Positions 1 through 21,899 of a stretch of DNA of 64,000 nt are shown here, in pieces. The stretch spans positions 124,001 to 188,000 of the forward strand of contig JAESPV010000027.1 of assembly GCA_016765495.1 (NCBI GenBank). The letters are read 5' to 3'. Origin of the DNA: Desulfocapsa sp. (GTDB lineage Bacteria; Desulfobacterota; Desulfobulbia; Desulfobulbales; Desulfocapsaceae). The position numbers and the translations under genes were made by a program. Every line of letters begins with the position of its first letter. The first letter of the stretch is position 1. The notes under the pieces were generated by a model. That model saw only the letters and a program-made list of their open reading frames with translations. It searched no databases and had not been told where the DNA came from.

Positions 1-2142
1 ATAGGGCTCTGCGATGGACTTGTATATGGTTTTACTTGCAGCATCACTTCCGCCAAACCGACTCTGATCTGAACAGAATATCTGTTCGTAATTTGATCCT
101 GTTGGCAATCCCATTTTATATCCGTAGAAGGTCTGTGGAGTAAAGTTTAATAAACACACCAGATGATCATCACGGTTTTTTGCATAACGGGTATAAGAGA
201 TAATAGAATTTTCCCGATCTTCAAGATCCATCCACTGAAATCCCTCCTGGCTGAAATCCTGTTCCCACAGGCTCGCATTATTTTTGTATAATGTGTTCAG
301 CTTTTCGAAAAATGTCAGCATCTCCTTATGTAATTCATTTTCATGCAAAAGATGAAAGTCCAGGCTATGTTTGCAATCCCATTCACGCCACTGACCAAAC
401 TCATTGCCCATAAATAAAAGTTTTTTTCCAGGATGCATCCACATACAGAGAAACAGGAGCCTGAGATTGGCAAATTTCTGCCAAAGATCTCCGGGCATTT
501 TATCAAGTAGCGATTTTTTTCCGTGTACAACTTCATCATGTGACAGCGGCAGGATAAAGTTTTCGGAAAAGGCATACATAATAGAAAACGTGAGGCTGTT
601 ATGATGGTACCTTCTGTAAATCGGGTCTTTTTCAAAATAATCGAGAATGTCATTCATCCAGCCCATATTCCATTTAAAACCGAATCCAAGGCCGCCTGCA
701 TCGGCAGGTTTTGAGACTCCGTAAAAACTTGTGGATTCTTCTGCGATCATCAGTGTGCCTGGGTGACGATCATACACAATTGAGTTGAGATGTTTGATAA
801 ATTCAATGGCTTCAAGATTTTCTCTTCCACCATAATTGTTTGGTAACCATTCGCCATCCTTTCGTGAATAGTCGAGATAAAGCATGGAGGCCACAGCATC
901 AACCCGTAATCCGTCTATGTGGTACTTGTCGATCCAGAATAGAGCATTGGCAATAAGAAAATTACTCACTTCTTTACGGCCATAATTGTAAATAAAGGTG
1001 CCCCATTCGGGGTGGGCACCTTTTCTGGGGTCGTCATGTTCATAGAGTGCTGTTCCGTCAAATCGAGCGAGGCTATGTGCGTCTTTCGGGAAATGAGCGG
1101 GAACCCAATCAAGAATAACACCAATACCTGCAGCATGACAGCTATCCACGAAAAACATAAAGTCTTCAGGTATTCCGTACCTGCTGGTCATACTGAATGG
1201 TCCGGTTATCTGGTATCCCCATGATTCATCCAGTGGATGTTCCATGACCGGCATGATCTCAATATGGGTAAATCCAAGCTTCTTTACATAGGGAATAAGT
1301 TTGTCGGCGAGTTCCTTAAAAGTGAGAAAGCGATCCGGGTTCTTAGGGTCGCGTTGCCATGATCCGGGATGCACTTCATAAATGGACATGGCACTATCGT
1401 AAGGATTTATGCTCTTTTTCGATTCCTGCCAATCCTGATCCTTCCATTGATAGTGGTCGAGATAGCGAACTATGGAAGCAGTCTTAGGTCGAAATTCTCC
1501 AAAAAATTGAAAGGGGTCAGATTTTTCAAGGATTTCACCCTGAGTAGTACGTATTTCAAACTTGTAAATTTCATTTTCGCCAATTCCCGGAAAAAAAAGT
1601 TCCCATATGCCAGAGTTGCCAAGACTTCTCATGGGATTTACTCTTCCATCCCAGCTGTTGAAGTTTCCAATCACCGAAACTCGGGTGGCAGATGGTGCCC
1701 AGACACGAAAAATCGTACCTTCAATTTGTGAATACATACCTGGATGTGCACCAATATGGTTATACAGTTCATAGTTGGTGCCAAAATTAAAGAGGAATCT
1801 GTCCTCTTCACTTAAGATGGGCATAAATCTGTATGGGTCATTGATTGTCTGTTCAACGCCATCGTTATAAGTGATTTTGTACTGGTAAGTATAGGGATCA
1901 AGGTCAGAATCATTGATTTTTTCACAATCAACGCATGCTTCAAAGATGCCTTCGTCGCGCACCTTTTCCATAGGGATTTCCTGACCATCGATAAGAAGTG
2001 CTACTGATCTGGCACTTGGCTGGAAACAGCGGATGGTTGCGGCAGAATACTTTCCTTTATCTGCGAAATGTACTCCCAGAATCTGAAAAGGATCATAATG
2101 TTCTGCACGGAGGAGACGGTCGATTTGTTCTTTTATTCCCAT
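1..2142 (-). CDS. glgB: 1,4-alpha-glucan branching enzyme, 3' end cut off by window
   Basis: GlgB makes the alpha-1,6 branches of glycogen by cutting an alpha-1,4 chain and re-attaching it. Reading the minus strand from ATG 2142 gives 714 residues without a stop up to the window edge; the family is about 720-740 residues long, so only the last few codons are missing. An N-terminal domain is followed by a CBM48-like module (roughly residues 125-215) and a GH13 barrel. The nucleophile lies in GLRVDAV (Asp about 415) and the acid/base in MIAEEST (Glu about 468); LPLSHDEVVHG is also typical. AGGGG lies 7 bases before the ATG. Other glycogen genes (glgX, glgP) lie at the far end of the window, so the pathway is split here. 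Confidence 0.95.
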   Translation of the reverse strand, partial: MGIKEQIDRLLRAEHYDPFQILGVHFADKGKYSAATIRCFQPSARSVALLIDGQEIPMEKVRDEGIFEACVDCEKINDSDLDPYTYQYKITYNDGVEQTINDPYRFMPILSEEDRFLFNFGTNYELYNHIGAHPGMYSQIEGTIFRVWAPSATRVSVIGNFNSWDGRVNPMRSLGNSGIWELFFPGIGENEIYKFEIRTTQGEILEKSDPFQFFGEFRPKTASIVRYLDHYQWKDQDWQESKKSINPYDSAMSIYEVHPGSWQRDPKNPDRFLTFKELADKLIPYVKKLGFTHIEIMPVMEHPLDESWGYQITGPFSMTSRYGIPEDFMFFVDSCHAAGIGVILDWVPAHFPKDAHSLARFDGTALYEHDDPRKGAHPEWGTFIYNYGRKEVSNFLIANALFWIDKYHIDGLRVDAVASMLYLDYSRKDGEWLPNNYGGRENLEAIEFIKHLNSIVYDRHPGTLMIAEESTSFYGVSKPADAGGLGFGFKWNMGWMNDILDYFEKDPIYRRYHHNSLTFSIMYAFSENFILPLSHDEVVHGKKSLLDKMPGDLWQKFANLRLLFLCMWMHPGKKLLFMGNEFGQWREWDCKHSLDFHLLHENELHKEMLTFFEKLNTLYKNNASLWEQDFSQEGFQWMDLEDRENSIISYTRYAKNRDDHLVCLLNFTPQTFYGYKMGLPTGSNYEQIFCSDQSRFGGSDAASKTIYKSIAEPY

Positions 2143-4633: not shown

Positions 4634-5236
4634 TCAAGCAAATGAATTTTTAATTACAACTTCGTCCAAATTCAATTGTCCCGGCCGAGGCCAGGGGTCT
4701 TTCGTTCCTTTACCAATTGCTATGAACATCGCGATCACATGATCATCTGGAAGTTTGATCAATTCTGCAACTTTTTCAAAATCAAAACCATCCATCGGAC
4801 ACGAATCATAGCCCATTGATTTTGCAGCCAGCATTAAAGTTTGAGCTGCAATACCGCAGGATCTCATGGCCTCATCTCTTTGAACTTGTTCTTTGCCACG
4901 ATAGTACTCATTAATGGCCGGGATCATGAAATCCTTAACTTCTTTGGCGGCCTTCACCCAATACCGGCCGGCTTGTTCCCATGCCATCAAATTTGCACAA
5001 AGCACAATGAAAAGTGATGTATCCGTTACCTGTGCCTGATCCCAGGAAACTTCCCTGATTTGCTTTCGCAGCTTTGGGTCAGAGACAACAACAAAACGCC
5101 AATTTTGAATATTAAAAGCAGTAGGAGACAGTAACGCTAACGAGAGGAGTTGCTGGATATCATCATCGGTCATCTGATGGTCTGGATCATACTGTTTTAC
5201 AGATCTTCGACCACGAATTGCTTCTTCAGTTTGCAT
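4634..5236 (-). CDS. Nitroreductase family protein
   Basis: A 200-residue FMN-dependent nitroreductase-like flavoprotein. The N-terminal RRSVKQYDP motif binds the FMN phosphate; LSPTAFNIQNWRFVVV and the late IAIGKGTKDPWPRP are family hallmarks. Such enzymes reduce nitro compounds, quinones or flavins with NAD(P)H; the natural substrate cannot be told from sequence. It lies 120 bases downstream of rubrerythrin on the same strand, but a strong hairpin at 5323-5352 separates them, so the transcript may be independent or attenuated. Confidence 0.88.
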   Translation of the reverse strand: MQTEEAIRGRRSVKQYDPDHQMTDDDIQQLLSLALLSPTAFNIQNWRFVVVSDPKLRKQIREVSWDQAQVTDTSLFIVLCANLMAWEQAGRYWVKAAKEVKDFMIPAINEYYRGKEQVQRDEAMRSCGIAAQTLMLAAKSMGYDSCPMDGFDFEKVAELIKLPDDHVIAMFIAIGKGTKDPWPRPGQLNLDEVVIKNSFA

Positions 5237-5359: not shown

Positions 5360-5941
5360 CTACCAGTTCTCACCAAGCAGTTCAAAATGGGACTGCGCGT
5401 GATCGCAGGCGGGGCATATATCAGGCGCTTCTTCACCTGTATGCAGATAGCCACAGTTTCGACAACGCCAGGTTGTGTTTTCTTTACCTTCCCTCTTAAA
5501 AACCTGTCCTGCTTTAATATTGGCAGCCAGGTCCCTGTAGCGCTTTTCGTGCTGTGTTTCAGCTACGGCAATGGACAAGAATACTGAAGAAATATCTGGA
5601 AAGCCCTCTTCCCTGGCAGTTTTGGCAAATCCCGGGTACATGATTGCCTGCTCGTATTCTTCTCCCGCTGCAGCAGCGAGCAAATTGTCAACGGTAGAAC
5701 CAATTACCCCGGCAGGAAATGAGCCAAGAACTTCCGCCTCTCCTCCTTCAAGCATTTTAAATAACCTTTTGGCGTGTTCCTTTTCCTGATTCGCTGTTTC
5801 CTCAAAGATATGCGATATCTGAACAAATCCATCTTCTTTAGCTTTTGACGCAAAATAGGTGTAACGGTTACGGGCCTGCGATTCACCAGCAAAAGCAGTG
5901 ATGATATTTTTTTCTGTCTGACTTCCTTTTAGTTGCACCAT
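5360..5941 (-). CDS. rbr: Rubrerythrin
   Basis: Rubrerythrin reduces hydrogen peroxide in anaerobes with electrons from rubredoxin or NADH-linked reductases. The 193-residue protein has an N-terminal ferritin-like four-helix domain (about residues 1-150) with diiron ligands in FAGESQARNRY, EETANQEKEHAKR and AVAETQHEKRY. A C-terminal rubredoxin domain follows, with its four cysteines in CRNCGY and CPACDH. Together with desulfoferrodoxin at 20013 it gives the cell a complete anaerobic superoxide/peroxide removal route. It starts 17 bases downstream of the Lon-like protease gene, suggesting one transcript. Confidence 0.96.
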   Translation of the reverse strand: MVQLKGSQTEKNIITAFAGESQARNRYTYFASKAKEDGFVQISHIFEETANQEKEHAKRLFKMLEGGEAEVLGSFPAGVIGSTVDNLLAAAAGEEYEQAIMYPGFAKTAREEGFPDISSVFLSIAVAETQHEKRYRDLAANIKAGQVFKREGKENTTWRCRNCGYLHTGEEAPDICPACDHAQSHFELLGENW

Positions 5942-5958: not shown

Positions 5959-8403
5959 TTATGAATTCTCTTTATCTTCACCGAATTTAAACATCCCCTC
6001 GGCCAGTTCTTTCAGCTTTTTGTCCACAAGAAAATGTATACTTTTTTTAGGATAGTTACCATTTTTCGAACATTTACCAGCAGTCATACCTGTAAGGATT
6101 TCTATCCCCTCATCAATGGTTTTGACGGCATAGACATGAAATTCCCCTTTCTTAACCGAATCCACTACATCTTTCCGAAGCATCAAATCTGCAACATTGG
6201 TGGCCGGAATAAGCACGCCCTGCTCGCCGGTAAGGCCACTACTTTTACAACAGTCGTAAAAGCCTTCGATTTTAGCGTTGGCTCCACCTATAGCTTGAAT
6301 TTCTCCATTTTGATTAACCGATCCGGTTATTGCAATGTTTTGTTTAATGGGAACCTCGGACAAACTTGAAAGAAGAGCATATATTTCTGTGGATGACGCG
6401 CTGTCTCCTTCCACGCCTGAGTATGACTGCTCAAAAGCCAAGCTGGCACTGAGGGTCAGAGGTTTGTCCTGGGCAAATTTTTGCCGTAGATAACCGCTTA
6501 GAATAAACACACCTTTATTATGGATCGGCCCTGCAAGCTTTGCTTCCCGTTCAATATTAATTACACCCGCCTTACCCATGGAAGTCGTAGCAGTGATTCG
6601 GGACGGGCGCCCAAACATATAATCACCCAGCATGTACACGGACAATCCGTTGACTTGTCCAACAACACTGCCGGTGGTGTCAATCATCATACTGCCCCGA
6701 TCAATCATTTCCTGGATTTTTTCCTCAATCAGGTTTGAGCGATGAATATGTGCTTGTATTGCTTTGTCCACATGTTCTTCTCCAATCACTTTTGCATTCT
6801 TTTGGCCTGCCCAGTAATCTGCCTCCCGGATAAGATCGGTAATACGAGGAAAACTGGTTGAGATTTTTTCTTTACGACCGGTCATTCGAACGCTCTGCTC
6901 AACAAGTGCAGCAACTCCACTTTTATCAAAATCCCGCAGCTGTTCATCTTTTGTAATACTGCGGATAAACGCCGTAAATTTTGTGATAGAGTCATCCGTT
7001 TTGTTCATTGATTGGTCAAAATCCGCCCGGACTTTAAAAATCTCCGGCACATCCTCATCATAGTGGAGAAGAAGCTGATAGAGGTGTGGATCAGCCAGCA
7101 ATATAACTTTGATATCGGTCTCAATTGCTTCCGGTTTGATGCCTGATGAGCTAAACCAGTAGGCTGGATCAAAAGTCTGAATTTCCATCATTTTAGTCTT
7201 AAGCGCTCTTTTAAGCGCCGACCAGACACCCGGTTCAGTTAGCAGGTCATGCAAATTGAGGACTAAATATCCGCCATTAGCTTTTAAAAAGGATCCTACT
7301 TTGATCTTAGTGAAATCCGTCCGCCAGACACCGCGATTATCCACCACTCGTTCGATGGATCCAAAGAGGTTGCGGTAAGTGGGATAGGATTCGATAATGA
7401 TCGGTTGTTTTTTCTGTTCGGAATTGTCCACCAGCAAGTTGACCTGATAAGCCATAAAAGGATCACCTGGCTGTTGCATCATCGATATCATTTGTTCCTG
7501 CTGATTAGCTTGGGATTTAGTAAAGAAAATCCCAAGATTATCAGCAAGATTTTTCAGCATTGCGGCAAGATATTTCTTTGCCTCTTTTTGCGTATAATTA
7601 TTTAGAAGCGGAGCCATGTATTCCGAGGCGGTGGTAGTGAACGTATGTTTATCCGTCTCAATTCCTTTTTCCCGTACTTCTTTTTGGAGATCATTAATCT
7701 CAAAGAACATCTGGTCGATATCTTTTTTCAATTTCTTGAATTTTTTCTTAATATCTTTGTATTCAGCCTCAGGAAAGCGACCTTTTTTAACCATTTCCTC
7801 GAGATTATGGATGGGCATGGGTTCTTTATCAACAATCGGCATCAACTTCGGGCGCTGCATTGGATCGCTCTGCATGGAAACCAGTGTAAAACCTTGTTCT
7901 TCCACTCTCTTATTTAGGGCCTTAAAAAAAGCAAGACGCCGTTTCTCATACGCCTCCATAAGGGCTTTTTTTCTGGCAATATAATCCTGACTTTCGAAGA
8001 GAAGTGGTATTTCAGTTTTTAATGTTTTTATAAAGGCATGTACATCTTCTTTGAAACGACTGCCTATTCCTGCAGCAAAACGCAGAAGCAGGGGAGCTTC
8101 CGGATTCTTGAAATTATTGACATAGCAAAATTCACAGGGGGGCTTATTCTTTTTTGCGATCTGGTTAAGAAGCTTCTTTACTACATCCAGACGGCCACTT
8201 CGAGGTTGCCCGGTGACAAGAACATTATAACCTGGTTTGTCAATATCCATGCCAAAGCGGAATGCCTCAATCCCTCGATCCTGGCCAATAATTTCTTCAA
8301 GTGGCTCTATGTCATCGGTGGTGTCAAAGGGTAATGTGGAAAGGTCGAGTCGCCAACGTAATTCATCTATTTTCAACTCAGTGCGTTTTGGTAATGCTAC
8401 CAT
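5959..8403 (-). CDS. Lon-like (LonB/LonC-type) ATP-dependent protease
   Basis: An 814-residue cytosolic AAA+ protease of the bacterial Lon-related class, distinct from housekeeping LonA because it lacks the LonA N-terminal domain. The N-terminal ATPase part has a degenerate P-loop (GQPRSGRLDVV, about residues 64-74) lacking the usual lysine, and a long coiled helical insert. The C-terminal protease domain shows the Ser-Lys dyad: Ser in GDSASSTEIYALL and Lys in GANAKIEGFYD. Residues like GREAKLAGPIHNKGVFIL are typical of the family. Rubrerythrin and nitroreductase follow on the same strand and Hsp20 lies just upstream, so this is probably a protein-quality and stress cluster. Substrates are unknown. 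Confidence 0.88.
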   Translation of the reverse strand: MVALPKRTELKIDELRWRLDLSTLPFDTTDDIEPLEEIIGQDRGIEAFRFGMDIDKPGYNVLVTGQPRSGRLDVVKKLLNQIAKKNKPPCEFCYVNNFKNPEAPLLLRFAAGIGSRFKEDVHAFIKTLKTEIPLLFESQDYIARKKALMEAYEKRRLAFFKALNKRVEEQGFTLVSMQSDPMQRPKLMPIVDKEPMPIHNLEEMVKKGRFPEAEYKDIKKKFKKLKKDIDQMFFEINDLQKEVREKGIETDKHTFTTTASEYMAPLLNNYTQKEAKKYLAAMLKNLADNLGIFFTKSQANQQEQMISMMQQPGDPFMAYQVNLLVDNSEQKKQPIIIESYPTYRNLFGSIERVVDNRGVWRTDFTKIKVGSFLKANGGYLVLNLHDLLTEPGVWSALKRALKTKMMEIQTFDPAYWFSSSGIKPEAIETDIKVILLADPHLYQLLLHYDEDVPEIFKVRADFDQSMNKTDDSITKFTAFIRSITKDEQLRDFDKSGVAALVEQSVRMTGRKEKISTSFPRITDLIREADYWAGQKNAKVIGEEHVDKAIQAHIHRSNLIEEKIQEMIDRGSMMIDTTGSVVGQVNGLSVYMLGDYMFGRPSRITATTSMGKAGVINIEREAKLAGPIHNKGVFILSGYLRQKFAQDKPLTLSASLAFEQSYSGVEGDSASSTEIYALLSSLSEVPIKQNIAITGSVNQNGEIQAIGGANAKIEGFYDCCKSSGLTGEQGVLIPATNVADLMLRKDVVDSVKKGEFHVYAVKTIDEGIEILTGMTAGKCSKNGNYPKKSIHFLVDKKLKELAEGMFKFGEDKENS

Positions 8404-8469: not shown

Positions 8470-8898
8470 TTAATCAGTGTCAATATGTATCCTTTTCATC
8501 ATGCCTCTCTGGTATTTTGGCATAACAATTTTAAGAATATTTTTCACAAAGGAAGCTCTGGTAATATTTGGATCGACCTTGCCGGGAAGCTTGATTGTTA
8601 TAGAAAAAGAGCCTCCCGGGGTCACTTCACCATTTTGCCAGACAATATCTCTCTGTCGCACTCCTATAATCTTGAGAGTATCTTCTGATACCGTGATCTG
8701 CAACTCACTTGAATCAAAAGTATATAGTTTACCCCGGACAATAATAGTGTCATTTGTTTCTTGAATATGAAAATCAGGTGGTATCGTGCAGGGAACGGTA
8801 GAACTGGGAAAGTCTCGACATATTTCTTCGAAAATATCGTTCAGTTCCTGCCGCATTTTCTTTATTTGTCTTTCCTGCCAAATAAGTAAATCAGGCAT
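8470..8898 (-). CDS. Hsp20/alpha-crystallin small heat shock protein
   Basis: A small ATP-independent chaperone of about 142 residues. The alpha-crystallin domain occupies about residues 40-135: it begins at PPDFHIQETNDTIIVRG, contains ITVSEDTLKIIGVR, and ends with ITRASFVKNILKIVMPK. The C-terminal IxI motif seen in many homologues is not obvious. I chose ATG 8898 because GGAGG lies 6 bases upstream of it; an upstream TTG at 8913 has no such site. Its long leader carries a structured element (8995-9078) that is repeated upstream of the redox operon at 21715. Confidence 0.9.
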   Translation of the reverse strand: MPDLLIWQERQIKKMRQELNDIFEEICRDFPSSTVPCTIPPDFHIQETNDTIIVRGKLYTFDSSELQITVSEDTLKIIGVRQRDIVWQNGEVTPGGSFSITIKLPGKVDPNITRASFVKNILKIVMPKYQRGMMKRIHIDTD

Positions 8899-8994
8899 AG
8901 TAGCCTCCAGCAAATCGTTAAGATGGGGTATCGATTTAGCTAAATTCCGTTTTTTATCTTTTGGGTTTCGGAATAAAAAAAATCCGGATCATCG

Positions 8995-9078
8995 TCTTTC
9001 AAAGGCAACCCGGCTGTCTTAAAAAAGATCCAAGGCTTTCCATCCTCGTCGTACGACGACTTTGGCTTTTTCTATGAA
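8995..9078 (-). promoter_or_regulatory. Structured 5' leader of hsp20, GEMM-like candidate riboswitch (copy 1)
   Basis: On the minus strand this leader starts TTCATAGAA and ends near TTGCCTTTGAAAGA. It matches the leader at 21764-21844 almost without gaps (about 60 of 84 positions by hand count). A P2-like hairpin TCGTC-GTAC-GACGA is followed by GGAAAGCC, then a P3-like arm TCT/AGA and AGCCGGGTTGCC. These resemble the 3' half of the c-di-GMP-I (GEMM-I) riboswitch, although GCAAAGCC is replaced by GGAAAGCC. Just downstream TTGGATC can pair with GATCCGG followed by eight U, a possible alternative terminator. Class and ligand are inference. Confidence 0.5.
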
Positions 9079-9100
9079 TTATTGCTTATGCTGTTTACCA

Positions 9101-9129
9101 AACATATAGCAGATTAAGATATGCGTCAA
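9101..9129 (-). promoter_or_regulatory. Sigma-70-type promoter of hsp20 leader
   Basis: Minus-strand TTGACG (9129-9124) and TATGTT (9106-9101) are separated by 17 bases. The same layout, with the same -10 and the same flanks (TCATCAG upstream, TTCATAGAA downstream), stands in front of the related leader at 21871-21899. Transcription would begin near 9094, leaving a leader of about 195 bases. Confidence 0.6.
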
Positions 9130-9513: not shown

Positions 9514-10872
9514 CTAACACTCAATGTCCAGGTCTTTGAGCTTTTTCCAGAGAACCTTTCTACTAATACCCAGTTTGGCTGCAGCTTCAATTTTCCGTCC
9601 TTTGGTTTCCTCAATAGCCTTGAGAATCCTTTGTCTCTCATAGCACATAACACCTTCACTCAAGGGCATATCTTCCGTGATGCAAGGAAGGTCTTCGGCT
9701 ATTTTTCTGCATTCCGAAGGCAAATGTGTAACATGGATATGACTTCCGGTTGAGAGAAGAATAGCCCTTTCTATTGCGTTTTTGAGTTCTCTCACGTTAC
9801 CCGGATAGTCATAGGCAAGAAGGCTTTTATAGGCATCAGGAGAAATGTCGACCCCTTCTTTCCCATACTTAGCCGAATAGATTTTAAGAAAATGCTCGGC
9901 AAGAGTGGATATGTCTTCGCCTCTTTCCCGTAGCGGAGGTAACCGGATGGGAACAACATTGATCCTGTAAAACAGATCCTCCCTGAATGTCCGTTCCTCG
10001 ATAGCCTTTTTTAAATCCTTAGCCGTGGCAAAAATCGTTCTTACATCCACCTTGATACTTTTATGGCTTCCAAGCCTGGTAATTTCATGCTCCTCAAGTA
10101 CTCTGAGAAGTTTTGCCTGCAAGCTGAGGGGTAATTCTCCAATTTCATCAAAGAAAATTGTTCCTCCATCCGCAACTTCAAACTTACCTTTCTTCGCCTG
10201 AACAGCACCTGTAAAAGCACCTTTCTCATGACCAAAGAGTTCTGATTCAAGAAGATTTTCAGGAATGGCAGCACAGTTTATTTTCAGATATACCTTGTCC
10301 TTTCTCTGGCTCAAATTATGGAGAGCACTCGCTACAAGTTCCTTACCAGTACCGCTTTCTCCCTGAATGCGAACAGGAACATCGGTTGGAGCAATAGTGG
10401 CCAGGCGGTCAAAAACCGCCTTCATAGCAGAACTATCACCGATAAAATGCTCTGACTCACTTTTCCCCCTGACAGTCTCCCTGAGCTGGTCATTTTCAAG
10501 CTGGAGTTCTCGATAACGGAAATATCGGTCAACGACAATGAGAAGAGCCTCATTGCTGAAAGGCTTACTCAAATAATCAAAGGCGCCTTTTTTAATGGCT
10601 GAAACAGCAGTATTTATCTCCGGGTAGCCGGTAATGATAATAACACCTGTTTCAGGACATATTTCTCTGGCTTTGGATAGAATCTCCATGCCGTTCAATC
10701 CTGGCAGTCTGAGATCCGTTATAATCAGATCAAAGTTCTGCCTGGAGAGCATCGCCAGTCCCTCATTGCCATCCTCACATGATGTAACGTCATAGTTGGA
10801 AGCAATGAGCGAGTGGCTGACTCCAAGCCGCATTGAAAGCTCATCTTCTATAAGCAAAATATTGTGTGTCAT
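9514..10872 (-). CDS. Sigma-54-dependent response regulator (NtrC/AtoC type)
   Basis: A full-length 452-residue activator. Residues 1-120 form a receiver domain with phospho-acceptor Asp53 (LIITDLRLPG) and the conserved Lys in LSKPF. The AAA+ domain (about 143-370) has Walker A GESGTGKE (171-178), the sigma-54 contact loop GAFTGA (218-223) and Walker B TIFFDEIGE. A Fis-type helix-turn-helix ends the protein (EAAAKLGISRKVLWKKL). With the kinase (11945) and the PhnD-like binding protein (13389) it forms a three-gene signalling unit, interrupted by a decayed copy of itself (10977-11939). The target promoters are not evident in the window. Confidence 0.93.
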   Translation of the reverse strand: MTHNILLIEDELSMRLGVSHSLIASNYDVTSCEDGNEGLAMLSRQNFDLIITDLRLPGLNGMEILSKAREICPETGVIIITGYPEINTAVSAIKKGAFDYLSKPFSNEALLIVVDRYFRYRELQLENDQLRETVRGKSESEHFIGDSSAMKAVFDRLATIAPTDVPVRIQGESGTGKELVASALHNLSQRKDKVYLKINCAAIPENLLESELFGHEKGAFTGAVQAKKGKFEVADGGTIFFDEIGELPLSLQAKLLRVLEEHEITRLGSHKSIKVDVRTIFATAKDLKKAIEERTFREDLFYRINVVPIRLPPLRERGEDISTLAEHFLKIYSAKYGKEGVDISPDAYKSLLAYDYPGNVRELKNAIERAILLSTGSHIHVTHLPSECRKIAEDLPCITEDMPLSEGVMCYERQRILKAIEETKGRKIEAAAKLGISRKVLWKKLKDLDIEC

Positions 10873-10976: not shown

Positions 10977-11939
10977 TTATTTCCAGTCTTTTTCCAGTAA
11001 CGGAGGCAACTGAATGGGAATAACATTAATTCGGTAAAATAGATCCTCCCTGAATGTCCGCTCCTTAACAGCCTTTTTCAAATCTTTGGCCGTGGCAAAA
11101 ATCGTTCTCACATTCACCTTGATACTTTTATGGCTTCCAAGCCGACTAATTATTTGCTTATCAAGCACTGTGAGAAGTCGTGCCTGCAGGCTAAGGGGCA
11201 TATCGCCTATTTCATCAAAAAAAATGGTGCCGCCATCAGCAACTTCAAATTTACCTTTTCTTGTCTGAAAAGCCCCGGTAAAAAAACCTTTCTCATGGCC
11301 AAAAAGTACTGTTTCGAGAAGATCTTCAGGGGTGGCTGAGCAGTTTATTTTCAGGTACGGCTTGTCCTTTCTCTTACTCAAATTATGGAGAGCATTAGCC
11401 ACAAGCTCTTTGCCAGTGCCGCTGTTACCCTGAACCCAAACAGGAAGATCAGTTCGAGCAACAGTGATCAGGCGCTCAAGGAGTCTTTTCAGAGCGGAAC
11501 TCTCACCAACAAAATGGCTTGACTGGCTTTTTTCCCTAACATTTTCTCTGGGCAAATCGTTTTTAAGCTGAAGAGCTCGATAACGGAAATATCTTTCAAC
11601 AATATTGAGGAGGGCATCACTGTTGAAGGGTTTACTCAGATAGTTAAAAGCGCCTTTTTTTATGGCCGAAACAGCAGTATCTATCTCCGGGTAACCGGTA
11701 ATGATAATAATACCGGTTTCAGGGCATAATTCCCTGGATGCGGACAGGATCTCCATGCCGTTCAATCCCGGTAGCCTAAGATCCGTTATAATCAGATCAT
11801 AGTTCTGTTCAATAAGTGCCCTCAGCCCCTCATTGCCATCCTTACATGTTGTAACTTCATAGTCGGAAGCGGTAAGCAGGTGGCCCCCCCCAAGCCGTAT
11901 CGAACGTTCGTCTTCTATAAACAGAATAGTGTTTTTCAT
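10977..11939 (-). pseudogene. Truncated duplicate of the sigma-54 response regulator
   Basis: A 320-residue product that aligns with the regulator at 9514 from residue 1 to about residue 315, then stops at PPLLEKDWK. It has lost the end of the AAA+ domain and the whole DNA-binding domain. Asp53 and Walker A (GNSGTGKE) remain, but the sigma-54 loop GAFTGA has become GFFTGA and several other core positions have drifted (SATPEDLLETVLFGHE). It cannot bind DNA in the normal way and probably cannot activate sigma-54. It might still accept phosphate from the adjacent kinase and act as a sink, but simple decay is more likely. It starts 5 bases after the kinase stop codon. Confidence 0.8.
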
Positions 11940-20012: not shown

Positions 20013-20390
20013 TTATCCCTTCCATAACCCATGCAGGTTACAGTATTCCCGGGCTGTGATTGAATCTGCATCAATCATAAAAACAGCTTCTGCGACCATG
20101 CCGGGACTCAGGAATTTTCGGAACACCCTGCCGTCTTCGGTACTTGCCTCAATCCATTCAATATAATGTTTTTCTTCCATTGGGTGAGGAACGCTGCCAA
20201 CCGAAATCTTAAATCCACCATCAATTTTTTCTACCACAGGTACATGCTTCTCTTTAGCTGCATCAACGGTATTCTCCTTAACATGAACCATGTTTTCTCC
20301 ACAACACACAAGATCACTTCCCCCTCCATGAAGCACTTCAACGATATTTCCACAGAGTTCACATTTATAGACCTGCATTTTCTCCGGCAT
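20013..20390 (-). CDS. dfx: Desulfoferrodoxin (superoxide reductase)
   Basis: This enzyme reduces superoxide to hydrogen peroxide in anaerobes without making oxygen. The 125-residue protein has both iron centres: an N-terminal desulforedoxin-like domain with Cys10, Cys13, Cys29 and Cys30, and the C-terminal neelaredoxin domain with His ligands in KHVP, SVPHPM and EKHYIEW, plus Cys and His in [14 protein letters not shown] precedes the ATG. It is the last gene of a four-gene minus-strand unit led by the structured leader at 21764; the peroxide made here could be handled by rubrerythrin (5360). Confidence 0.97.
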
Positions 20391-20463: not shown

Positions 20464-21036
20464 CTACTGAATAAGTCGATAAGGATAAGCTCGCTTAGTC
20501 CATTGACTCACAGGATATTTATCCTGTAAGTGCTCATAAGCTTTTTTGAGCAGTTTTGGATCATTGGTACTTTTGTAAAGGCTGACCCCTTTCTGAAAAA
20601 TTGCTTCAGGGGCAGAATCACTTTCTGAGAAATCTGATATAATCTTTTCGTAACTGCTGAGCGCTTTTTTGAAATCATTGCCATTAAAATGCAGATTACC
20701 GATACCTAGCAATAGAGAAGGTATCAACTCCTCGGCGCTCATAAATCCCACCGTTCGATGATGTTCATTCCCTTCCTGGTCGAGAATGAGTAAAGTCGGT
20801 GTCCACGTTACTTTAAAGTCTGATGCCATTGGTTGCTGATCTGAGGCAACTTGTAAAGGAACTACGTTCTGATTTATAAAGTTACTAACTGCTTCGTTTG
20901 GATACGTACCCGCATCCATCTGTTGACAGCCAATTCATTGAGGGTTGAAAAAATCCAGGAAAATCGGCTTTCCTTCGCTTTTTGATCGTTCCAGTGCTTT
21001 GTCCAATTCTTTTTCCCAGTCAACTTTCTTTTGCAT
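20464..21036 (-). CDS. Selenocysteine-containing thioredoxin-like protein (UxxC), UGA at 20935-20937
   Basis: Reading through one in-frame UGA gives a 190-residue protein. It starts at ATG 21036 (GGAGG 8 bases upstream), and the UGA is codon 34 in FLDFFNPQ-U-IGCQQMD. This is exactly where thioredoxins have the first cysteine of CxxC, so the motif becomes UxxC. The following DFKVTWTPTLLILDQEG with its cis-Pro region confirms the thioredoxin fold; a TPR-like helical tail follows (about residues 120-190). A SECIS-like hairpin stands 24 bases after the UGA (20899-20918). Without read-through the gene would make a 33-residue stub. It sits in an operon with desulfoferrodoxin, so a thiol-disulfide or peroxide-linked role is likely. 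Confidence 0.88.
20899..20937 (-). promoter_or_regulatory. SECIS-like element for the UxxC thioredoxin
   Basis: On the minus strand UGA (20937-20935) is followed by 16 bases and then the 8-bp stem TGGATGCG/CGTATCCA (one G-U pair), closing a GGTA loop at 20910-20907. Bacterial SECIS rules call for an apical loop 16-37 bases after the UGA with a G among its first two bases; both hold here. Confidence 0.8.
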
Positions 21037-21096: not shown

Positions 21097-21441
21097 TCAA
21101 AATTCTACTGGAGTGAAAAAGAATACAAACCTCCCTGTTTCAACATCCACCTTAAGGGTTGCACCGTGATTGAGTCCGTAAAGCACATACCCGGGAACGC
21201 CAGATGGATCATCGGATTCGGTGGCGTGTTGTGGTGATTCAAAATCACGATCCCGATCATACCATGACATCAGCATGTAATCCTCCATGTGCTTAACTGC
21301 CTCTACCTTTGCCAGTTCCATGGCTTCAAGGTAATCTTTTAATGGTACTTCGGGATTTAATCCAACAATGGTCACACCTGACAAGTCAGAATCAGGCTGC
21401 GTGCAGGTGAGCCCATCTGTTGCTGTAGTCACTTGTGTCAT
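21097..21441 (-). CDS. AF1514-like conserved protein of anaerobes
   Basis: A 114-residue soluble protein that resembles the AF1514 family (named after an Archaeoglobus protein). The conserved run is YMLMSWYDRDRDFESPQH, then VPGYVLYGLNHGATLKVDVE and a short hydrophobic end (RFVFFFTP). Function is unknown. It lies between the rubredoxin-like gene (40 bases upstream) and the selenocysteine thioredoxin (60 bases downstream) in what looks like one redox-defence transcript. The family assignment is from memory. Confidence 0.7.
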   Translation of the reverse strand: MTQVTTATDGLTCTQPDSDLSGVTIVGLNPEVPLKDYLEAMELAKVEAVKHMEDYMLMSWYDRDRDFESPQHATESDDPSGVPGYVLYGLNHGATLKVDVETGRFVFFFTPVEF

Positions 21442-21481: not shown

Positions 21482-21715
21482 TCACAGTCTTGTATCAATG
21501 TTCCCAGGTCCTCCGCAGTCCGGTGTGTAGCAGGTGATATTTTTAAAATCACATTTCTCCTTGCACTCCGGACACTCTTCCGGCAAGGTGGCTGCGGTAA
21601 AAGTAAAAGCGCAGTTGCCGCATTTCCAATGGGTTAAATTACTATCCTCGGCAAGCATCCCATCTACTCCATTACCGCGTACTATAAATTCCGGTTTATG
21701 TCTTTCTGCTGTCAT
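21482..21715 (-). CDS. Small rubredoxin-like / zinc-ribbon protein
   Basis: A 77-residue protein beginning MTAERHKPEF. It has a metal-binding pair WKCGNCAFTF and ECPECKEKCDF, the usual two knuckles of a rubredoxin-like or zinc ribbon domain, plus a cysteine-bearing tail CYTPDCGGPG. AAGGGGA precedes ATG 21715, which I prefer to the longer frame from 21775. It is the first gene behind the structured leader (21764-21844) and heads the unit that ends with desulfoferrodoxin. It could be the electron donor for that enzyme, which is inference. Confidence 0.75.
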   Translation of the reverse strand: MTAERHKPEFIVRGNGVDGMLAEDSNLTHWKCGNCAFTFTAATLPEECPECKEKCDFKNITCYTPDCGGPGNIDTRL

Positions 21716-21763
21716 GATACATATCCCCTTTTTGGAAGAATTTTTAAAAAGCCGACTTGCCTC

Positions 21764-21844
21764 TATCAAAGTCAATCAGGCTATCTAATACAGACACAAG
21801 GTTTTCCGTTCCCGTCTCACAACAGCGTCTGCCTCTTCTATGAA
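21764..21844 (-). promoter_or_regulatory. Structured 5' leader of the redox operon, GEMM-like candidate riboswitch (copy 2)
   Basis: It shares about 71% identity by hand count with the hsp20 leader (8995-9078) over its whole length, with a single one-base gap. A P2-like stem CTGTT/GACGG closes a GTGA (GNRA) tetraloop, followed by GGAAAACC, a TCT/AGA arm and ATAGCC-TGATTGAC. Downstream, GCC-bulge-GACTT pairs with AAGTCGGC and runs into five U, a terminator-like shape. The similarity to c-di-GMP-I riboswitches is partial, so the ligand is uncertain. Confidence 0.5.
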
Positions 21845-21870
21845 CTGCTATCACTTGTATTGTTTATCAA

Positions 21871-21899
21871 AACATATGGCACAGTGTGGTGCGAGTCAA
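21871..21899 (-). promoter_or_regulatory. Sigma-70-type promoter of the redox operon
   Basis: Minus-strand TTGACT (21899-21894) and TATGTT (21876-21871) with 17-base spacing. Its flanks match the hsp20 promoter at 9101-9129, so promoter and leader look like one conserved module. Confidence 0.6.

Follow-up and report, generated by a model that had tools for sequence, protein, structure and literature searches.

A c-di-GMP-I-family leader, probably a terminator-coupled riboswitch, before an hsp20-lonB-rubrerythrin gene row in Desulfocapsa sp., and its diverged cassette copies

The window, i.e., the whole stretch of 64,000 nucleotides from Desulfocapsa sp. analysed here, contains two rows of genes on the minus strand, each preceded by a promoter-leader cassette of about 150 bases, which lies at 8975-9129 (copy 1) and again at 21746-21899 (copy 2); a third copy, designated C27:3915, was found elsewhere in the genome. 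The features are as follows, in window coordinates unless stated otherwise.

9101..9129, minus strand: copy 1 promoter-like boxes TTGACG-17-TATGTT, with a homologous upstream stretch at copy 2
9001..9076, minus strand: copy 1 c-di-GMP-I (GEMM-I) aptamer with G20, C21-G46, A47, C92 and U44; RF01051 49.7 bits
8975..9013, minus strand: predicted copy 1 terminator, 5' arm CCGGGTT at 9013-9007, 3' arm GATCCGG at 8990-8984, T-run at 8982-8975
8470..8898, minus strand: Hsp20/alpha-crystallin family protein, with which the copy 1 row opens (Pfam HSP20 29.3 bits, cut-off 20.8)
5959..8403, minus strand: LonB-like protease (Pfam AAA_32 and LonB domains over cut-off)
5360..5941, minus strand: rubrerythrin (NCBIfam NF045767 283.2 bits, cut-off 200)
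4634..5236, minus strand: nitroreductase family protein (domain match)
21871..21899, minus strand: copy 2 promoter-like boxes TTGACT-17-TATGTT (box scan)
21768..21843, minus strand: copy 2 diverged GEMM-I-like leader with A22 opposite G45 and A92; P3 broken at 3 of 10 pairs
21746..21782, minus strand: copy 2 hairpin resembling a terminator (-10.3 kcal/mol, five T), which overlaps the 3' arm of the aptamer
21482..21715, minus strand: small rubredoxin-like protein, with which the copy 2 row opens (Pfam RUBY_RBDX 26.4, just under the cut-off of 26.5)
21097..21441, minus strand: DUF5619 protein (domain match)
20464..20919, minus strand: thioredoxin-like/TPR protein (TPR_6 over, Thioredoxin_2 just under cut-off)
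20013..20390, minus strand: desulfoferrodoxin (TIGR00320 192.9 bits, cut-off 146.9)
G000:C27:3915-3991 (L005 1501-1577), minus strand: third cassette copy, C27:3915, with U20, A46 and G47

The hsp20 gene starts with an ATG at 8898, with GGAGG ahead of it, and the NCBIfam labels of Hsp20, LonB and the rubredoxin-like protein scored below their own cut-offs. Judging by strand and spacing, the nitroreductase gene would also belong to the copy 1 transcript. The window further contains tandem response-regulator genes at 9514-10872 and 10977-11939 (both minus strand), with repeated DNA blocks of 300 nt at 82% and 160 nt at 77% lying 1067 bases apart; the 320-aa protein is shorter than the 452-aa one at the C-terminal end.

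The repetition of the module at 8995-9129 at a distance of 12.7 kb, which was noticed in a preliminary description of this DNA, was confirmed by the local alignment of 321-base stretches of both copies, with a score of 126 against a maximum of 39 in 500 mononucleotide shuffles. The interval as first drawn ended too early at 8995, since the terminator 3' arm and the T-run fall just beyond it. The leaders share 61 of 89 alignment columns with one gap (48 of 84 ungapped), which is near the some 60 of 84 positions counted by hand, and TTCATAGAA begins at 9078 in copy 1 and at 21844 in copy 2. The boxes with the 17-base spacing were likewise found at both copies (9129-9101 and 21899-21871, minus strand); the scanned stretches hold 3 and 2 promoter-like sites, respectively, where shuffled sequence has 1.6 and 0.6 on average, and the boxes alone are thus little proof. 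Over the 75 bases that precede the aptamers, the alignment of copy 1 with copy 2 scored 55 and that with C27:3915 scored 32 (0 of 300 shuffles as high in both cases), and that of copy 2 with C27:3915 scored 30 (1 of 300). A promoter-leader cassette is common to all three, which stand on a single 389 kb contig of a genome bin with an estimated contamination of 7%. A BLAST search with the copy 1 module gave matches in 24 of the 93 family genomes; outside the own genome, these start at query base 59 at the earliest, i.e., in the leader and without the promoter, so that among the 93 genomes the promoter part of the cassette was observed in this one only.

At the curated Rfam cut-offs, the sole match in the window was RF01051 at 9001-9076 on the minus strand, with 49.7 bits against the cut-off of 35 (E 1e-6 for the 64 kb window), which bears out, for copy 1, the earlier proposal of a candidate GEMM-I/c-di-GMP-I-like riboswitch; of the related GEMM models, the variant family RF03167 (c-di-GMP-I-GGC) gave 51.0 bits, below its cut-off of 59. 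The model R2, made of 38 aptamers with copy 1, copy 2 and C27:3915 left out, gave 61.1 bits for copy 1, all three copies being in the training set of the model R1. Copy 1 keeps 16 of the 18 aptamer pairs and has a minimum-energy fold similar to the aptamer; all three ligand-contact bases, G20, A47 and C92, are present, in the numbering of Vc2. These bases contact c-di-GMP in Vc2, where mutation of G20 lowers the binding 30,000-fold, according to PMC4744006. With the three bases present, c-di-GMP is the predicted ligand of copy 1.

The membership of copy 1 in the c-di-GMP-I (GEMM-I) family is well supported; its standing as a fully working switch is less so, as U44 and the weak terminator count against full function. 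Position 44 is C in 97 of the 99 elements compared (the 95 aptamers described below and 4 of the MAG Desulfobulbaceae AUK272), the sole other U being that of C27:3915, and G83 was found in 99 of 99, with which U44 of copy 1 could still wobble. The interhelical pair 44-83 is presumably C-G in Vc2. It is called universally conserved in PMC4744006. Copy 1 also has G-G where the closing pair of P2 is expected, and a non-GNRA tetraloop, GUAC, unique among the 99 elements.

The core of copy 1, GGAAAGCC, in which the pair 21-46 is C-G instead of G-C, had been regarded as odd for GEMM-I. The difference is real, but it is no pointer to a new ligand, being a coordinated flip and the usual state in this genome and family: in a non-random sample of 95 aptamers, 72 carry G20-C21-C22 with G45-G46-A47, 18 the classical G20-G21-C22 with G45-C46-A47, and 2 C21-U22 with A45-G46, and the remaining 3 are C27:3915, copy 2 and L025, the last two having been read by eye (L025 at its 3' side). 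The three core states imply that positions 21-46 and 22-45 change together. The GGAAAGCC core as a mark of a new ligand class was rejected, since the flipped pair is the commonest. The sample comprises 6 aptamers of this genome and 89 from the family matches listed (29 from given loci and 60 picked, the first 44 of these from the genus of the window), the 93 family genomes having 272 matches in all.

The covariation looked for among homologous leaders was found. In 41 aligned aptamers, including copy 1, copy 2 and C27:3915, 96.9% of the cells of an 18-pair structure pair, and changes on both sides occur at 11 pairs in 70 cells, against a shuffled mean of 15.1 (0 of 500 as high) in a test inflated by the kinship among the 41 rows; the controls with slid partners, which keep this kinship but favour a structure taken from the consensus, gave 3 to 15 cells. 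P2 and P3 are thereby covariation-supported among the 41 sequences. The preliminary description had the paired arms kept while bases change, which holds only in part for these two copies: 16 of 18 pairs are present in copy 1 and 13 in copy 2, with P2 mostly intact and P3 not. Further copies in relatives, also expected there, are plentiful: RF01051 matched above cut-off in 56 of the 93 family genomes, own included, with 272 matches in total, under stricter filters by which weak copies in relatives may escape. As a separate observation, eight almost identical aptamers that share the P2 CTTTGA/TCAAAG and a GCAAA 3' end, as if recently multiplied, occur among those fetched from three genus genomes, in counts of 4 (L043, L045, L046, L048 of G006), 1 (L056 of G007) and 3 (L074, L075, L076 of G018). 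G006 and G018 contain 21 and 22 GEMM-I matches per genome, and several of those fetched precede exported-looking or repeat proteins.

The terminator suspected earlier can form, but through the P3/P1 3' arm and not, as was thought, by taking the P3 5' arm: CCGGGTT, inside the aptamer, pairs with GATCCGG, which is followed by A and eight T, in a weak hairpin of -8.4 kcal/mol. The hairpin of C27:3915 has -17.8 kcal/mol, and the median is -22.9 kcal/mol over those of the 99 elements that have one. A hairpin before a T-run pairing into the last 18 aptamer bases was found in 76 of the 99 elements versus 216 of 990 shuffles of the downstream sequence, and the flipped 21-46 pair goes with it: C21-G46 elements have such an overlapping terminator in 71 of 78 cases, the classical G21-C46 ones mostly not (3 of 19), and the others, copy 2 and C27:3915, in 2 of 2. 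At copy 1, all that a simple terminator scan listed on the minus strand was a stem of 5 pairs at 9048-9031, inside P3 and before another T-run, and at copy 2 it listed nothing; its loop limit of 8 makes it omit the long-looped hairpins of both copies. As the aptamer and the terminator are mutually exclusive, a ligand that stabilises the aptamer would make copy 1 an ON switch.

In the whole genome, RF01051 scored over cut-off at the elements of contigs C21 (67.1 bits), C24 (64.7) and C7 (63.0) and at copy 1. Below the cut-off are C27:3915 with 27.5 bits and, at chance level, C7:176200 with 16.0 and C27:227378 with 14.4 bits, two places that match or exceed copy 2 (14.3 bits, E 6.4, likewise chance level); at the same lax E-value, 8 of 14 control genomes gave some RF01051 match and 0 of 14 one over the cut-off. 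With the model R1, six elements of this genome came up, including copy 1, copy 2 and C27:3915, in addition to two places at 13.4 bits (E 3.4); the model R2 gave copy 2 22.1 bits (E 4.6e-4 over 114,564 bases). Copy 2 and C27:3915 are relatives, not members, of RF01051. Copy 2 keeps 13 of 18 pairs, the five broken ones being 22-45 in the Vc2 numbering, the P3 alignment columns 42-72, 45-70 and 47-68, and the closing pair of P2, which is also absent from copy 1 and C27:3915. Hence the earlier view of copy 2 as a candidate riboswitch did not survive, as it does not qualify as a working aptamer, and an equal second riboswitch was rejected in view of the 13 of 18 pairs, the broken P3 and A92. It reads as a decayed paralogue of the copy 1 cassette in which a terminator-like hairpin has remained. 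C27:3915 keeps 15 of 18 pairs and has 38.9 bits with R2. No gene of at least 60 aa was found on its strand within 160 bases, and the first ORF behind it is antisense to a Na/H-exchanger gene. Ahead of it stand an 84-aa gene, a gene of the DsrC family (71.7 bits against a cut-off of 24.9) and a 67-aa ORF; a convergent Na/H-exchanger-TrkA_N gene faces it.

These states of the copies would also agree with all three cassettes being decaying relics, with a copy 1 that does not switch and whose weak terminator simply lowers basal expression. U44, the G-G in P2, the non-GNRA loop and the weak terminator of copy 1 fit such a decay, as do the plainly decayed copy 2 and C27:3915 with U20, G47 and no gene of at least 60 aa on its strand within 160 bases. 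However, copy 1 scores above the Rfam cut-off with 16 of 18 pairs and all three contact bases intact, and its minimum-energy fold is near the aptamer, which makes this explanation rather unlikely, though it deserves to be taken seriously.

It is a good deal less probable that the cassette lineage has drifted to another ligand (cGAMP, or a linear or modified dinucleotide), with copy 2 and C27:3915 as specificity variants. The contact positions differ among the copies (A92 in copy 2; U20 and G47 in C27:3915), and the Rfam variant family RF03167 exists. GEMM-I forms with G20A or G20A/C92U bind cGAMP or c-di-AMP, as given in passages of PMC7288161 and PMC6274999. On the other hand, P3 and the pair 22-45 are disrupted as well by the changes in copy 2, which a switch of ligand would not require; neither for copy 2 nor for C27:3915 was an orthologue found that would show conservation (BLAST, and stretches near homologous genes in other genomes), and copy 1 itself carries the c-di-GMP base set. 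As for the cyclases, the genome gave 17 GGDEF matches, of which two are pieces of one domain and one has stops. At the site in the GGDEF domain that decides for cGAMP synthesis, D (the c-di-GMP type) was read in 14 of the 14 domains readable by script, one of them in a stretch with stops. One of the three unreadable ones, L190 (G000:C32:22757-23074), has a GGDDF motif, a further point for another ligand, with D by eye at the same site. A GGDDF enzyme is an active second cGAMP synthase of Geobacter, according to the abstract of PMC8835794, so that with L190 cGAMP has some possibility in this organism, c-di-GMP being favoured. That the repeat is a mere duplicated promoter region, with a chance or passenger likeness to GEMM-I, has next to no probability: the promoter and the stretch before it do belong to the repeat and copy 2 alone is at chance level with RF01051, but for copy 1 the notion is refuted by the Rfam match at E 1e-6 and the covariation, and the 272 family matches and the BLAST matches elsewhere, which cover the leader and not the promoter, also argue against it.

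The genes behind the other elements of this genome are diverse. The gene behind the C21 element has a weak likeness to the sll1863 stress family (25.5 bits, cut-off 35) and no Pfam match, the one behind the C24 element encodes a purple-acid-phosphatase-like protein, and the one behind the C7 element a sigma-54-type regulator (models below cut-offs). Among ten picked downstream proteins of other genomes, there were four universal stress proteins, two of cytochrome c families, two cNMP-binding proteins, one molybdopterin oxidoreductase and one sulfite reductase (dsrA), and many further ones looked exported by eye; the automatic picking of downstream genes is rough, with 5 of 95 aptamers left without a gene and some picks doubtful. 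This genome is thus not the only one to have stress genes under GEMM-I. The dsrA case (L026, G028:C184) has a GEMM-I aptamer at 503-575 (plus strand), 185 bases upstream of a second, divergent dsrA at 761-1996 (plus strand; TIGR02064 493.7 bits, cut-off 392.85), which scores 87.1 bits with R2 and is in its training set. No GEMM-I was found at five further divergent or second dsrA copies (G037, G043, G052, G053, G056), and GEMM control of dsrA as a family-wide rule was dropped, the element standing at 1 (G028) of 38 dsrA stretches (30 given loci and 8 fetched, of 87 dsrA matches).

The tie to hsp20, called unusual from the start, was observed in this genome only, hsp20 itself having turned up, at E 1e-10, in a single one of 20 genus genomes, namely the window's own. 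A thioredoxin-TPR protein like that of the copy 2 row occurs at 19 places in 18 of the 93 family genomes, own included, and no riboswitch was found near its homologues at the 18 places in other genomes (L106-L123), nine of these genomes being covered also as longer stretches (L144-L152); a match in L151 (E 0.23) was taken as chance. The rubredoxin-like protein occurs at 5 places in 5 of 20 genus genomes, and none of the genes in the four others (L100-L103) had a riboswitch nearby. Thus, the regulon has no conservation beyond this genome and, loosely, AUK272, the sole hsp20 relative found in the named genome collection, which may lack entries for the window's own genome or for very close ones. 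In AUK272, the rubredoxin-like, DUF5619 (cut short), thioredoxin-TPR, hsp20 and lonB genes stand in one row, with an 84-aa gene, a 64-aa ORF and a ferredoxin upstream, the 84-aa gene being 67% identical to the one near C27:3915. The rubredoxin-like gene of this row (L104 437-837) has an in-frame TAA, and this and the shortened DUF5619 may be sequencing error or decay. A GEMM-I element (R1 80.3 bits) stands in the same orientation as the row, about 0.7 kb ahead of the 84-aa gene and separated from it by one ORF or more; its orthologue is the C21 element (95% identity; upstream score 86) rather than the copy 1 cassette. The window's genome has pieces of the row at three places, each accompanied by a cassette: copy 1 immediately precedes hsp20, copy 2 immediately precedes the rubredoxin-like gene, and C27:3915 follows the 84-aa gene at a distance of some 830 bases, two ORFs lying in between. 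The simplest reading, from one relative only, is that the row may have broken up in the window's genome with the cassette copied; a fusion in AUK272 is a possible alternative. A wider version, in which the cassette was copied to the pieces of a breaking stress row, with c-di-GMP control kept or once kept over heat-shock, protease and oxygen-defence genes and the copies by now divided into working, orphaned and ligand-site-altered ones, one of them possibly moving to another ligand, is tentative and somewhat doubtful.

On balance, copy 1 is probably a c-di-GMP-I riboswitch with a transcription-terminator platform, and copy 2 its decayed duplicate. Transcription would start behind the TTGACG/TATGTT promoter, and the leader would fold into an aptamer of about 76 bases. 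With c-di-GMP bound, the P3/P1 3' arm would be held in the aptamer and the RNA polymerase would read on into hsp20, lonB, rubrerythrin and nitroreductase, presumably co-transcribed; with no ligand, CCGGGTT would pair with GATCCGG as the terminator. Copy 1 would thus probably turn on a set of stress and oxygen-defence genes, and copy 2 would probably serve at most as a leaky attenuator or a plain leader for the rubredoxin-like and desulfoferrodoxin genes. The element is ordinary and of a kind already known; the gene control by copy 1 is unusual, and the interest lies in the regulon and in the series of three cassettes in three states. If true, c-di-GMP, best known for surface life, would be tied to proteostasis and oxygen defence in an anaerobe, a presumed sulfate reducer, and three paralogous cassettes in one genome would offer a natural series of a riboswitch copied, orphaned and altered.

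Among the open PMC papers listed, by titles and abstract openings and with most subscription papers missing, no link of c-di-GMP/GEMM riboswitches to rubrerythrin, universal stress or heat-shock genes was found, and no open PMC paper was found to mention riboswitch, c-di-GMP and Desulfobulb together. PMC7865049, on C. difficile biofilm, contains both "c-di-GMP riboswitch" and "rubrerythrin", and in the sulfate reducer O. alaskensis G20 one c-di-GMP-I riboswitch stands before norR, according to PMC11124144. As for c-di-GMP-I-GGC (RF03167), its cut-off of 59 is exceeded by 3 of this genome's 6 elements (70.9, 68.6 and 61.0 bits); the consensus has G47, unlike copy 1, which with A47 and 51.0 bits falls outside the family. 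This variant is said to have been defined by Weinberg et al. in 2017, and its name presumably refers to the G at position 47. The GEMM-Ib (3',3'-cGAMP) switch of Geobacter (PDB 4YAZ) shares C at position 21 with copy 1 and differs at position 20, which is A in the cGAMP type and G in copies 1 and 2 (U in C27:3915). Among the 95 aptamers, A20 occurs only in L025 (G038:C3:335868-335963, minus strand); an AUK272 element, L170 (G093:C80:17927-18010, plus strand), also has this base of cGAMP-type GEMM-Ib switches. Positions 20, 21 and 47 correspond to A14, C15 and A41 of 4YAZ. These three are named among the ligand contacts in PMC7288161. Geobacter GEMM-Ib has a terminator platform, and expression falls without ligand, as reported in PMC6456294, and the ON direction predicted for copy 1 would be in line with it. 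With the RF01051 family, copy 1 shares the P2/P3 architecture, G20, A47, C92 and the downstream terminator platform; it differs in C-G for G-C at 21-46, U44, the G-G in P2, the GUAC loop, and in the heat-shock and oxygen-defence genes that stand behind it.
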